From assembly GCF_003261175.1 (NCBI RefSeq), contig NZ_QLNP01000094.1, positions 32,555 to 96,554 of the forward strand: 64,000 bases of DNA, given 5' to 3'. Of this stretch, positions 7,293-10,798 are shown piece by piece. The notes below the pieces were generated by a model. It made no database searches and was not told the DNA's origin. It worked only from the letters and a program-made list of their open reading frames with translations. The position numbers were made by a program, and so were the translations under genes. The stretch comes from Arthrobacter globiformis (GTDB taxonomy: Bacteria > Actinomycetota > Actinomycetes > Actinomycetales > Micrococcaceae). The first letter of the stretch is position 1, and each line of letters starts with the position of its first letter.

Positions 7293-8245
7293 ATGAAACC
7301 CTTGCCGAAACAGCCCGGCCCGCCGCCCCCACCGGGGGCTCGACACTGAGCGGACTGCGGTTCTCCAAGGGCCACGGAACAGGCAACGACTTTGTCCTGG
7401 TCGCCGATCCCGAGGGCGTGCACGCGATCTCCGCGGAGCAGGTCGCCCAGCTGTGCGACCGCCACCGCGGCATCGGCGGCGACGGACTCATCCGCGCCGT
7501 CCCGTCCCGTCTCCTTGACGAGGGCCGGCAGATTCTTGCCGAGAACCCCGACGCCGAGTGGTTCATGGATTACCGCAACGGTGACGGTTCCCTCTCAGAG
7601 ATGTGCGGCAACGGCGTGCGCGTGTTCGTCCACTTCCTCCTGGCCGAAGGCCTGGCTCAGCTGCCGGCCGGAGGCTCACTGACCATCGGCACCCGCGGCG
7701 GCGTCAAGACCATTGTCCGCACACGTGACGGCTACGCCGTCGACATGGGCCCCTGGGAGTTCATTTTCCCGGACGAGGCAGCGGCCCGCGCCATGGATTC
7801 TCTCGTCAGCGCCGAGGGACTCGAGGTGCCGCGGCCGGCGCTGTCCGTCAGCATGGGTAACCCCCACACGGTCGTTGCCCTGGCCGAGCTGTCCGAACTC
7901 CGGGACACCCGGCTTTTTACCGCCCCGCACGTCGACCCGGCGCCCGCCAATGGAACGAACGTCGAGTTCGTCGTCCCGGCCGAGCCGCTGGTGCACGAGG
8001 GCGTGGGCACCGTGACCATGCGGGTCCACGAGCGTGGCGTCGGCGAGACGCAGTCCTGCGGCACCGGCGCGTGCGCCGCAGCAGTGGCCATCCGTCACTG
8101 GGCCGGACAGGGCGCGCCGGACGCCTGGCAGGTGAAGGTGCCGGGCGGCGTCGTGGGCGTGAAGTTCTTCACCGTCGCCGGCGGCCGGGAGCATGTTGAG
8201 CTCAGCGGCCCGGCAACGATCGTTGCTACTGGGACGCTTTCCTGA
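7289..8245 (+). CDS. dapF: Diaminopimelate epimerase
   Basis: The product is a 318-residue enzyme that converts LL- to meso-diaminopimelate for peptidoglycan and lysine. The two catalytic cysteines are visible in MCGNGVR (about 105) and SCGTGACA (about 257). The ATG is six bases downstream of TAACCT (7277-7282), so a leaderless transcript is likely as well as read-through from the EamA gene. An N-terminal 20 residues rich in Ala/Thr precede the first strand. Its 3' end overlaps the convergent methyltransferase gene by 20 bases. Confidence 0.97.
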   Translation: MNETLAETARPAAPTGGSTLSGLRFSKGHGTGNDFVLVADPEGVHAISAEQVAQLCDRHRGIGGDGLIRAVPSRLLDEGRQILAENPDAEWFMDYRNGDGSLSEMCGNGVRVFVHFLLAEGLAQLPAGGSLTIGTRGGVKTIVRTRDGYAVDMGPWEFIFPDEAAARAMDSLVSAEGLEVPRPALSVSMGNPHTVVALAELSELRDTRLFTAPHVDPAPANGTNVEFVVPAEPLVHEGVGTVTMRVHERGVGETQSCGTGACAAAVAIRHWAGQGAPDAWQVKVPGGVVGVKFFTVAGGREHVELSGPATIVATGTLS

Positions 8246-8840
8246 CCCGCAGGATCCTGAAGGATTTGGACGTGCTCTCCCGCGTCACCGTGAAGGAGTC
8301 ATCCAGTACCTCCGCCATCCAGCGCTGAAGCGTATCCGAGCCCAGGTTCTTCTGCACCACCAGCCACGCCGAACCGCCCGGTGCCAGCCTGGGCAGCCAG
8401 AGCAGCAGGAGTGAGTGGAGTTCATCCTTGCCAATCCGGATCGGCGGATTGGACCAGATGGTGTCGAAGCGGATCTCCGGATCCACGTTCTCCGGCGTGC
8501 TGGCCGTGACATTGTTCAGCCCAAGCAGTCCGGCGTTCCCGTTGGTGAGCGCGATGCATCGTTCATTGACGTCCACGGCGTAGACCTGAGCGTGCGGTGC
8601 CCGCAGCGCCATGGTCAGGGCGACGGGTCCCCACCCGCAGCCGATGTCGAGCAGGTTTCCCTGCGGCGCAGGCGCGGGAACCTCGGCCAGCAGGATGGCC
8701 GTCCCCTTGTCGATCCCGTCCGGACTGAAGATGCCGGACGAGGTCTGCAGCTTCCGCGTTTCACCGGCCAGTTCCACAGTGAGGGGCTTGCGGGTAAACG
8801 GCCCCGCCGGTGATGCGCTGAAATAGTGGGCAGATTCCAT
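8226..8840 (-). CDS. RsmC-like class I SAM-dependent methyltransferase
   Basis: The product is a 204-residue Rossmann methyltransferase. Motif I is LLDIGCGWGPVALTMA (about residue 60), the acidic end of strand 2 is VYAVDVNE, and the substrate motif IV is SNPPIRIG (about 131). The NPP motif and overall order match the C-terminal half of RsmC, the 16S rRNA G1207 N2-methyltransferase. Single-domain forms like this one are common in actinobacteria, and their substrate is not proved. The start at 8840 has TAATCT on the minus strand eight bases upstream. Longer upstream frames have no support. Confidence 0.88.
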   Translation of the reverse strand: MESAHYFSASPAGPFTRKPLTVELAGETRKLQTSSGIFSPDGIDKGTAILLAEVPAPAPQGNLLDIGCGWGPVALTMALRAPHAQVYAVDVNERCIALTNGNAGLLGLNNVTASTPENVDPEIRFDTIWSNPPIRIGKDELHSLLLLWLPRLAPGGSAWLVVQKNLGSDTLQRWMAEVLDDSFTVTRESTSKSFRILRVRKASQ

Positions 8841-9220
8841 AACTGGCCAGATTAGTGGGCTGCCCGCCTGATGGGAAACCGGCTGACGGGAAAGCCGGCC
8901 GGCCGTTCTGGTATCATTGAAGGCATGTTCCTGATTTTTGAGTAGCCGGTACTTCTTTTTGCCCGCGGCCTTTAGTCGCCGGCACCGGCCCATGGCTCCC
9001 CTCCAATGCGACGCAGGTATTGCCCTTTGCAGGCACAAACCTTCCGCAGGAGCGCAGCCCGAAACAGCACTCAATCAGACCGCTTTCCGCCGGCCATGCC
9101 CGCGCCTGCCGGCATTTCAGGAGACCCTCCATGACCCCTCGCAGTCAGCCCAGCGCGAATACCGCTGCCAAGGGCGGCAATCAGCACTATTCTGAAGATG
9201 CAGAACCTTCAAAGGAGACC
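8841..9220 (+). promoter_or_regulatory. hflX 5' leader region (380 bases)
   Basis: This stretch holds the promoters of two divergent genes and a long hflX leader. TATCAT at 8912-8917 is a good -10 whose start point falls at the ATG of a six-codon ORF (8925-8945). The leader can fold so that GCCGGT (8945-8950) pairs with ACCGGC (8984-8989) around an inner hairpin (8961-8969 with 8975-8983). The outer stem begins on the last base of the uORF stop codon. Two imperfect 15-base direct repeats (8869-8883 and 8884-8899) lie upstream of the -10. I see no U-rich terminator, so control may be Rho-dependent or translational. Confidence 0.6.
8925..8945 (+). CDS. Leaderless leader peptide MFLIFE upstream of hflX
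   Basis: This is a six-codon ORF (ATG, then Phe-Leu-Ile-Phe-Glu, TAG) starting seven bases after the -10 hexamer TATCAT, so it would be translated from a leaderless mRNA. The peptide closely resembles MYLIFM, the macrolide-sensing leader of the ABC-F gene msrD. HflX is a ribosome-splitting factor tied to macrolide/lincosamide tolerance in Listeria and mycobacteria. The stop codon abuts a stable hairpin. The inference is that drug-stalled ribosomes on this ORF change the fold of the leader. This has not been tested here. Confidence 0.6.
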   Translation: MFLIFE

Positions 9221-10798
9221 ATGACCAATCAGCAAAATCCCGGATCCGAGCCGGCAGCCCAGGACATGAGTCCTGAGGAGATCCAGGCTGTTATCGACCG
9301 GATCCTCGCCAAGGACGTCCCGGCCAAGAACGCCGCACCTGCCAACGGCAGCCGCGCCGACAGCCAGGGCGTCTTGGGTAAGGCGCAGGCCATCTCGCAG
9401 CTCGCGGAAGAGCACAGCACGTACGACGGCGACCAGCAGGACCTCGAGGAACGTCGTGCACTGCGACGCACGGCCGGGCTGTCCACCGAACTCGAGGACG
9501 TCACCGAAGTCGAATACCGGCAGTTGCGCCTGGAACGCGTCGTTCTCACCGGGCTCTGGACCGAGGGCACGCTTGCCGACGCCGAGAATTCCCTGCGTGA
9601 ACTCGCTGCCCTGGCGGAAACCGCGGGCTCGGAAGTCCTCGACGGACTGGTCCAGCGGCGCGCCAAGCCGGACCCCGGCACCTTCCTCGGTTCCGGCAAG
9701 GCCTTGGAACTCAAAGACGTGGTGATGTCCACCGGCGCCGATACCGTCGTGGTGGACGCCGAACTCGCTCCCTCCCAGAGACGCGGCCTTGAAGACATCG
9801 TCAAGGTGAAGGTCATCGACCGCACGGCCCTCATCCTCGACATCTTCGCCCAGCACGCCAAGAGCCGCGAAGGTAAGGCCCAGGTGGAGCTGGCGCAGCT
9901 CGAATACCTCCTCCCGCGCCTCCGTGGCTGGGGTGAATCCATGTCCCGCCAGGCCGGTGGCCAGGTGGGGGGCGCCGGCGCCGGCATGGGCTCCCGTGGG
10001 CCCGGTGAAACCAAGATCGAACTGGACCGGCGAAGGATCCGCACCCGGATGGCCAAGCTGCGGCGCGAGATCGCCGCGATGAAGCCTGCACGGGAGACCA
10101 AACGGGCCAACCGCCGTCGTAATGAAGTCCCGTCCGTGGCCATCGCCGGATACACCAACGCCGGCAAGTCCTCGCTGCTGAACCGCCTCACGGACGCCGG
10201 GGTCCTAGTGGAGAACGCCCTGTTCGCCACCCTGGATCCCACCGTCCGCAAGGCAGAGACCGCCGACGGAATGGGGTACACGCTGGCCGACACCGTGGGC
10301 TTCGTCCGGTCCCTTCCCACCCAGTTGGTGGAGGCCTTCCGTTCCACCCTTGAGGAAGTGGCGGATGCAGACCTGATCCTGCACGTCGTGGACGTGTCGC
10401 ACCCGGACCCAGAGGGCCAGATCGCCGCCGTGCGGTCGGTGTTCGCCGAGGTGGACGCCCGCAAGGTGCCCGAGATCATCGTCCTGAACAAGGCCGACGC
10501 CGCCGACCCGTTTGTGGTGGAACGGCTGAAGCAGCGCGAACCACGGCACGTGGTGGTTTCGGCGCGTACGGGGGAGGGCATTGCCGAGCTTCTCGAGGCG
10601 ATCAGCGAAGCCATCCCGCGGCCTAGCGTCAAGATGCAGCTCCTCGTGCCGTACCACCGCGGGGATCTCATCAGCAAGCTGCACGACTCCGACGCGGAGA
10701 TCCTGAGCCTGGATCACGAAGAGGGCGGTACCCGCGCGGTGGTCATGGTCCGGGAAGGCCTCGCGGCTGAACTGGAATCCTTCAGCACCGATGACTGA
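9221..10798 (+). CDS. hflX: Ribosome-associated GTPase HflX
   Basis: The product is a 525-residue HflX GTPase, which splits stalled 70S ribosomes. The N-terminal HflX domain ends in the glycine-rich GAGMGSRGPGETKIELDRR segment near 260. The G domain follows, with G1 GYTNAGKSS (about 310), G3 DTVGF (about 356) and G4 NKAD (about 423). The start at 9221 has AAAGGAG ideally placed. A second in-frame ATG at 9131 has an equally good AGGAG seven bases upstream and would add 30 residues. dinG overlaps its end by eight bases. Expression is probably controlled by the leader ORF at 8925. Confidence 0.96.
   Translation: MTNQQNPGSEPAAQDMSPEEIQAVIDRILAKDVPAKNAAPANGSRADSQGVLGKAQAISQLAEEHSTYDGDQQDLEERRALRRTAGLSTELEDVTEVEYRQLRLERVVLTGLWTEGTLADAENSLRELAALAETAGSEVLDGLVQRRAKPDPGTFLGSGKALELKDVVMSTGADTVVVDAELAPSQRRGLEDIVKVKVIDRTALILDIFAQHAKSREGKAQVELAQLEYLLPRLRGWGESMSRQAGGQVGGAGAGMGSRGPGETKIELDRRRIRTRMAKLRREIAAMKPARETKRANRRRNEVPSVAIAGYTNAGKSSLLNRLTDAGVLVENALFATLDPTVRKAETADGMGYTLADTVGFVRSLPTQLVEAFRSTLEEVADADLILHVVDVSHPDPEGQIAAVRSVFAEVDARKVPEIIVLNKADAADPFVVERLKQREPRHVVVSARTGEGIAELLEAISEAIPRPSVKMQLLVPYHRGDLISKLHDSDAEILSLDHEEGGTRAVVMVREGLAAELESFSTDD

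Follow-up and report, generated by a model that had tools for sequence, protein, structure and literature searches.

What does a reading frame of six codons do at the apparent start of an hflX transcript? The locus lies in the window, by which we mean the whole stretch of 64,000 nucleotides of Arthrobacter globiformis DNA that was analysed, and a preliminary description took the frame for a drug sensor that resembles the macrolide-sensing leader of MsrD and tunes hflX by attenuation. From sequence comparison we favour, at somewhat better than even confidence, the view that positions 8925-8945 form a translated cis-regulatory leader ORF (uORF) at the 5' end of hflX mRNA, which would act by ribosome-mediated attenuation and induce the gene when a drug stalls the ribosome.

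The features of the leader all lie on the plus strand. An extended -10 element of the form TGnTAnnnT (TGGTATCAT, 8909-8917) consists of TATCAT at 8912-8917 with TGG before it, and seven bases separate it from a uORF that reads ATG TTC CTG ATT TTT GAG TAG (8925-8945; MFLIFE-stop). Direct reading of the sequence thus bears out the box, the spacing, the ORF and the TAG stop as first described. The downstream gene (9221-10798) encodes the ribosome-splitting GTPase HflX, matching TIGR03156 at 440 bits (cut-off 217) as well as PF13167, PF16360 and PF01926. Its ATG at 9221 is preceded by AAAGGAG at 9211-9217 and separated from the uORF by 275 bases, in agreement with the 276 given earlier as the distance to the hflX start (8945 + 276 = 9221). 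The uORF 21-mer occurs once in the genome. A search of both strands of the 64 kb window gave a single match to the generic pattern (TGnTAnnnT, then 6-7 nt, ATG, 2-5 codons and a stop), and a single-strand search of 40 first-order Markov sequences, each of 64 kb, gave none. A sigma-70 scan of 8000-9600 found no promoter because no good -35 goes with the -10. On the minus strand, a divergent gene at 8226-8840 encodes a small methyltransferase-domain protein (PF05175) whose nearest named models, PrmC and RsmC, are both below cut-off; by eye its -10 is close to its own ATG, and it may be leaderless too.

The earlier reading had been tied to conservation of the uORF in close relatives, and when this was checked the uORF proved to be well conserved. 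The pattern ATG-[FY]-L-I-F-E-stop occurs in 152 of 199 genomes of the genus, with one match per matching genome and none in the reversed control. Neighbouring genes were read for 60 of these 152 matches, and all 60 lie before hflX. The 47 genomes without a match all have hflX; 45 of them were readable (L055 starts at a contig end and G119 was not included), and 43 of the 45 carry a variant ORF, also of six codons, with the same promoter arrangement at the same place. Six-codon length is therefore retained in 195 of 197 readable genomes. The remaining two are natural losses among members of the genus: in L398 the ORF is shortened to MFLI-stop and the remaining leader is kept, and in L397 the whole leader is gone, with a TCAGCCC-type block and TATTCT retained.

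We assembled 63 non-redundant loci of the genus for comparison, and their peptides are MFLIFE (33), MFLNFK (10), MILNFK (6), MILISK (3), MFLNSK (2), MILIFK (2) and seven singletons, counts that are not frequencies because 30 of the 63 were found via the MFLIFE pattern. Residue 4 is N in 21 of the 63, which make up one clade, and the stop codon is TAG in 51, TAA in 12 and never TGA. In a separate search by a looser pattern, with codon 6 free and F/Y and L/F allowed, the named genomes among the 80 loci listed of 116 matching stretches include Arthrobacter, Pseudarthrobacter and Paenarthrobacter. Of these 80 loci 63 are of Arthrobacter type; 63 of 63 read MFLIFE, and 55 stand before hflX, the other 8 stretches not extending to the gene. 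The remaining 17 listed loci, from other phyla, were rejected as real relatives and taken as chance matches; 8 of the 17 have an ORF of at least 80 aa within 700 nt, and by eye these include no common or obvious resistance gene. Among 41 genomes taken irrespective of the pattern, M-x-L/F-hydrophobic-F-x gave 34 matches, one per genome, and all 34 are at hflX, ruling out in that sample that the same leader stands before other genes.

The promoter is as constant as the ORF that follows it. The fixed bases of TGnTAnnnT lie at one distance from the ATG in 61 of the 63 loci and are shifted by one base in the other two, and the base before the ATG is C in 62. Because the spacing between the -10 and the ATG is fixed at 6-7 nt, the uORF is probably leaderless, with a transcription start at or near A8925, that is, at the A of the ATG or within a base or two. 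Part of the genus has TTGACA 7 nt before the -10, which we rejected as a -35 element on the ground of its wrong spacing. A GGGAAAC near -50 appears in the consensus of the MFLIFE clade only and may belong to the divergent gene.

If the uORF is translated, its variation should bear the mark of coding, and here the choice of sample matters. An initial count of 18 silent to 2 replacing changes in the MFLIFE clade of the 63 loci was discounted: the pattern by which 30 of its 35 loci had been selected excludes most replacing changes in advance. The 41 genomes taken irrespective of the pattern (G000-G040) offer a fair sample, in which the peptides are MFLIFE in 33, MILNFK in 4 and MILIFQ, MFLNFR, MILISK and MFLNFK in one each. 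With changes placed on the hflX tree, codons 2-7 of this sample show 26 changes, of which 18 are silent (7 at the first base of Leu3, 11 at third positions in codons 2, 4 and 5 and the stop) and 8 replacing. Since transitions are silent at 7 of 18 sites, this gives p 0.0017, a rough value from parsimony counts. The Leu3 codon ends in G at 61 of 63 loci, and even silent positions show less variation than most positions in the flanks (about 5 to 15 changes each), so that the nucleic acid itself is in part constrained.

This constraint on the nucleic acid, together with the AT-richness of the uORF in a window of 67% GC, speaks for the stretch being merely a promoter or initially transcribed region and the ORF incidental. 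We consider that very unlikely, given that silent changes outnumber replacing ones 18 to 8 in the unbiased sample (p 0.002), and given the six-codon length in 195 of 197 readable genomes and the glutamate at the free codon 6 in all 63 named matches.

Three RNA elements accompany the uORF, and they differ in how they are conserved. The hairpin P1 (8945-8989) has arms GCCGGT...ACCGGC, and its first base is the last base of the uORF stop; the region 8943-8992 folds with z -2.97. The preliminary description asked whether ORF and hairpin are conserved together. The hairpin is indeed present and abuts the stop, but its sequence is particular to the lineage of the window: a hairpin in this position is general, with enough space for one in 59 of 63 leaders (mean z -2.2; 49 of 59 below -1 and 30 of 59 below -2), while the P1 sequences are largely dissimilar among relatives and 4 of the 63 leaders have just 13-15 nt there. 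We therefore rejected the exact 8945-8989 hairpin as a conserved element and kept its position alone. In one relative (L048:1078-1295), P1 is enlarged by near-tandem CGGGTTAAAGG-like units, and its arms are still complementary.

The second hairpin, P2 (9008-9047), ranks with the best-conserved stretches of the leader. In the window it consists of the core GCGAYGCAGG (9008-9017) and CCTTCCGC (9040-9047), and across the genus the core GCGAYGCAGG...CCUUCCGC, with an asymmetric internal loop, is nearly invariant and matched in 57 of 63 loci, L004, L008 and L023 being exceptions. Its inner pair in 43 aligned loci is UA in 29, UG in 10 and CG in 4, with the window and two of its kin misaligned at the 3' arm.

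The third element, P0, is a long-range helix between the uORF itself and a downstream anti-uORF element, ACTCAATCAG (9069-9078; columns 200-206 of alignment A1), which is able to pair with codons 5-6 and the stop. In the best fold of the window, which includes P0, P1 and P2 (z -2.45), the 5' strand occupies 8931-8943 in two 5-bp runs within codons 3-7. The first 156 nt of the leader are unusually stable (z -2.45), whereas the stability of the whole 296-nt leader is unremarkable (z -0.92). RNAalifold also proposes P0 unprompted. Pairs were counted in 43 of the 63 loci, placed by MAFFT into an alignment that used sequence alone; the 20 loci outside it are 15 of the basal clade plus L014, L048, L057, L060 and L065. 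Pair 16:203, which involves the first base of codon 6, is A-U in 23 and G-C in 18 of the 43, and in one clade the change from Glu to Lys (GAG to AAG) is matched by a C-to-U change in the partner. The third base of codon 5 pairs as C-G in 32, U-G in 5 and U-A in 4.

Statistical support for these helices is mixed. In P0 and P2 together, 95.9% of cells are paired against 30-50% when the strands are slid, a comparison that favours the structure because it was derived from these same sequences. There are 29 double-changed cells against 11.1 in shuffled alignments, a value that 0 of 500 shuffles reach. The two statistics that common descent affects least fare no better than shuffled alignments: double-changed pairs number 4 against 3.1 (170 of 500) and pair types 14 against 13.1 (162 of 500). 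Placed on the tree, the double changes reduce to roughly one event at each of pairs 16:203 and 15:204. In the basal clade the complements are shifted (11 nt in L004, 10 nt in L030), and a motif scan found no P0 complement in L027. Analogous pairings occur in other genera, such as AUGACUU with AAGUCAU in g22 and AUGUGGAU with AUCCACAU in g2; complements found by length alone are mostly near chance when taken singly (mean 6.5 against 5.7). Taken together, the alignments suggest that the P0 helix is likely to be real. Two further pairings were set aside: one between the post-stop CCGGC and the core GCAGG, proposed by RNAalifold, is nearly invariant and hence carries no covariation signal, and a second uORF complement at the proximal promoter is fixed in sequence. 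Rfam gave no match at the gathering score in the 64 kb, its three matches in 8850-9260 being far below threshold and on the other strand.

Downstream of P0, the leader offers clues to the step at which hflX might be controlled. No intrinsic terminator or U-tract was found in 8000-9600, and attenuation at such a terminator was rejected on this result. The stretch 9017-9110, at 40% C and 23% G, is a candidate Rho-loading stretch. C exceeds G in all 63 genus leaders, with a median C/G of 1.58 against a background of 1.0, and 59 of the 63 are above 1.39, the 95th percentile of that background. A C-rich, G-poor untranslated leader is described as a Rho-loading feature (PMC12121999). Attenuation, if any, is thus more likely to be Rho-dependent or translational than to use an intrinsic terminator.

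A ribosome stalled at the extreme 5' end might instead shield hflX mRNA from 5'-to-3' decay and leave termination unchanged. On erm mRNAs a stalled ribosome protects from decay in this direction, and both the place of the ORF at the presumed 5' end and the lack of an intrinsic terminator in 8000-9600 would suit such a role. Protection of this kind has no need of P0, P1 and P2, which recur in relatives, and we regard it as quite unlikely.

Closer to the gene, AGGAG and an in-frame ATG at 9119-9133 form a possible upstream hflX start, 30 codons before 9221. In the genus, 40 of 63 loci have an ATG at -90 (38 with AGGAG before it) and 18 have a TTG there, so hflX may have two in-frame starts, one at -90 and one, with AAAGGAG, at 0. 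In L009, and partly in L013, the stretch between the two starts is out of the usual frame. Two blocks in this region, TCAGCCCAGCGCGAAT (9145-9160; at position -75 relative to hflX in 57 of 63 loci, at -74 in another) and CACTATTCTG (9185-9194), are conserved, including their wobble positions, at a fixed distance to hflX, and are retained in L397 despite the loss of its leader. They are possibly a proximal promoter and a regulator site. Within the second block, TATTCT at 9188-9193, which is part of the genus consensus and kept in L397, may be a second, basal promoter, a role that we infer.

Transcriptional control raises another explanation, namely that hflX is induced chiefly by WblC/WhiB7, as in Streptomyces, and that the leader only tunes it. 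WblC does activate hflX in Streptomyces coelicolor (PMC7157823). By eye, the GAAAWY motif expected 3 nt before a -35 was not seen in 8850-8912, where GAAACC and GAAAGC are the only approximations and the -35 was not placed. We judge this explanation slightly less probable still than protection from decay.

The reading that we prefer, a translated leader ORF with drug-stall induction, can be put as a sequence of events. It builds on what the comparison of relatives yields: an ORF that varies mostly by silent changes, a constant promoter spacing, the hairpins, an excess of C and the conserved P0 complement. To these it adds by inference that the mRNA starts at the ORF, that the ORF is translated and ribosomes stall on it, and also which drug causes this, which way the switch works and which step it controls. 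Ribosomes would load on the 5'-terminal AUG. In normal translation they would finish MFLIFE and leave, whereupon the last codons and the stop would pair with the anti-uORF element; with P0 formed, P1 and P2 would form as well, and along the long C-rich untranslated leader transcription or translation would fail before hflX. A drug in the exit tunnel, for example a cladinose macrolide, would hold the ribosome at Glu6 or at the stop. Because a ribosome with codon 6 in its P site would cover the 5' strands of both P0 and P1, stalling would have to change the fold, so that the leader refolds and full-length hflX is made. Stalled ribosomes would in this way induce the very factor that splits them. 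As the output step we favour Rho-dependent attenuation that the stalled ribosome relieves; the alternatives are translational control and mRNA stabilisation.

How far does the arrangement extend beyond the genus? We scanned 82 hflX loci from 31 other genera of the family for a mini-ORF pattern (a -10, 6-7 nt, ATG, 1-6 further codons and a stop). A mini-ORF of 3-7 codons is present at 35 loci in 13 genera, against a mean of 0.8 and a maximum of 4 in shuffled sequences and 0 on the reverse strand, and control spacings of 1-2, 3-4, 9-10 and 12-13 nt gave 3, 1, 1 and 0 of the 82 loci. Requiring the stricter, extended form of the -10 leaves 24 loci in 10 genera, against 0.04 in shuffled sequences. 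In 16 to 18 of the 31 other genera the mini-ORF has no match; in g32, five loci have a short leader that contains no such ORF, which is likewise absent from five loci of g31. Outside the family, none of 86 hflX regions matches the strict pattern (0.6 expected) and 5 match the loose one (5.6 expected); class-wide, the pattern is present in 3 of 296, all three members of the genus. Within our sample, the feature is thus confined to Micrococcaceae and patchy there. Several other genera share a strikingly conserved junction of promoter and leader before hflX, consisting of TGATARARTTTT, about 5 bases and an ATG with the mini-ORF next (L109, L110, L127, L128, L131-L134, L141 and L142).

The peptides of these genera diverge widely. 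Hydrophobic ones with a central L, I or F form the majority, and the peptides include MRLFK, MFLFK, MFLFT and MLLFI in g7, MLIFL and MFLFI in g26, MLSFL in g19, MTLFFV in g23, MTLIIL in g20, MTYMFFL in g10, MWITYL in g2 and MWIYLR in g4. The peptides of g8 and g28 are MKNK, MANK, MTNK and MKK, of which MKNK, MANK and MKK are named as not MsrDL-like, and g12 and g27 have versions of 12 and 15 codons. The version in g27 (L141 and L142) is an arginine-rich MILTQRVxxRIRFVG of 15 codons at the same place.

Such diversity raises the question of whether the ORF senses the state of translation and not a specific drug, unsplit 70S ribosomes or slow initiation or termination keeping P0 open and raising hflX. 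Across genera it is indeed the architecture, a 5'-terminal ORF of 3-7 codons, that is shared and not the peptide; leaderless initiation by 70S particles has been described (PMC9031893), and an initiating ribosome would partly cover the P0 nucleotides. Within the genus, however, the peptide changes slowly (152 of 199 identical bar a possible F/Y), and outside it the peptides are for the most part hydrophobic around a middle L, I or F. We consider sensing of translation state alone unlikely, if less so than the alternatives discussed above. Only a little less doubtful, and offered tentatively, is a broader picture in which, in about half of the sampled genera of Micrococcaceae, fast-evolving leaderless minimal ORFs, many of them resembling erythromycin-resistance peptides (E-peptides), start the hflX mRNA and gauge unsplit or drug-held 70S ribosomes. 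The peptide would set which drug is felt and would diversify between genera (MFLIFE, MFLNFK, MRLFK, MTLFFV, MWITYL), and P0, coevolving with the peptide codons, would transmit the signal. The ORF could be a direct gauge of 70S ribosomes because a 5'-terminal AUG is read by the undissociated 70S and HflX splits the 70S.

For drug-stall induction, the nature of the signal can be considered by analogy. In MsrDL (MYLIFM), the drug-sensing residues are reported to be L3 and I4, position 2 tolerates alanine, an alanine change at I4 abolishes induction, and UAA induces better than UAG (PMC10314930). Loss of hflX is reported to make Streptomyces coelicolor fourfold more sensitive to erythromycin (PMC7157823), and Listeria hflXr to have a stalling leader ORF (PMC6310831). 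For MFLIFE, macrolides are a plausible candidate trigger in view of the match to L3 and I4 of MsrDL, the E-peptides discussed below, the role of HflX in erythromycin resistance and the leader of Listeria hflXr. The likeness is uneven within the genus: MFLIFE keeps L3, I4 and F5, but residue 4 is N in 21 of 63 loci, and for MFLNFK, which has lost I4, a macrolide is less plausible. The signal may be broader than macrolides. The original proposal of a drug sensor that acts by attenuation is supported in part, by the conserved ORF, its fixed distance to the -10, its position at hflX wherever checked and its potential to pair with a downstream element. The absence of a U-tract terminator, the UAG stop, the replacement of I4 by N and the quite different peptides of other genera speak against a simple copy of MsrDL.

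The drug-sensing leader peptides cited here for comparison belong to resistance genes found in Streptococcus, Listeria and further Firmicutes. At our locus an MsrDL-type sequence stands in the chromosomes of common soil actinobacteria, at the apparent 5' end of a leaderless mRNA and before a ribosome-splitting factor. If our reading is true, leaderless mRNAs, which are common in actinobacteria, would be usable for drug sensing. The family also provides a natural, phylogenetically ordered set of nascent peptides of 4-6 residues for questions about residues and drugs, and the change of codon 6 from GAG to AAG with C to U in its partner would amount to two codes constraining one short sequence.

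Parts of this arrangement have precedents. Our literature search, whose coverage left subscription papers largely outside, did not turn up a leaderless MsrDL-like hexapeptide before an actinobacterial hflX with an element that pairs with the ORF. In Listeria and Bacillales, hflX is already known to be preceded by leader ORFs with RLR peptides (PMC6310831, PMC8632094). The uORFC-6-1 motif of Bacillales resembles our leader in having structured RNA downstream of a uORF start before hflX, and differs in phylum and in its Arg-Leu-Arg peptide as far as that source describes it (PMC8632094), a separation made by peptide and not by RNA comparison. The attenuator of Listeria hflXr/rli80 likewise combines a short leader ORF before an hflX gene with alternative RNA folds. 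Its ORF is of 14 aa with an RLR motif, followed by an intrinsic terminator, and the hflX gene is duplicated, whereas here the ORF encodes a hexapeptide without RLR and all but a few of the searched genomes have one hflX match. The RLR motif is absent from MFLIFE and from all 13 peptide types of the 63 genus loci.

Other comparisons concern the peptide or the mode of initiation. The uORFs share with E-peptides a length of 4-6 and a hydrophobic character, and MRLFK of g7 resembles the E-peptide MRLFV. E-peptides are selected from libraries or expressed artificially and act by drug ejection, whereas the uORFs here are natural leaders. Leucine is common in E-peptides of this length, and the authors speculated on kinship with Erm leader peptides (PMC2928234). 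The toiL uORF of E. coli is comparable as an antibiotic-responsive uORF coupled with Rho termination. Mycobacteria have leaderless, cysteine-rich attenuator ORFs that control a downstream gene and sense amino-acid supply; they share the leaderless uORF with our locus and differ in responding to amino-acid supply, their peptides not being of the drug-peptide type. With MsrDL the uORF shares six codons reading M-aromatic-L-I-F-x-stop, a hairpin abutting the stop and a ribosome-protective gene downstream. In contrast to MsrDL, the uORF is apparently leaderless, precedes hflX and not an ABC-F gene, lacks a U-tract terminator and ends mostly in UAG; it is also chromosomal, widespread in its genus and accompanied by a partner element that pairs with the ORF itself.
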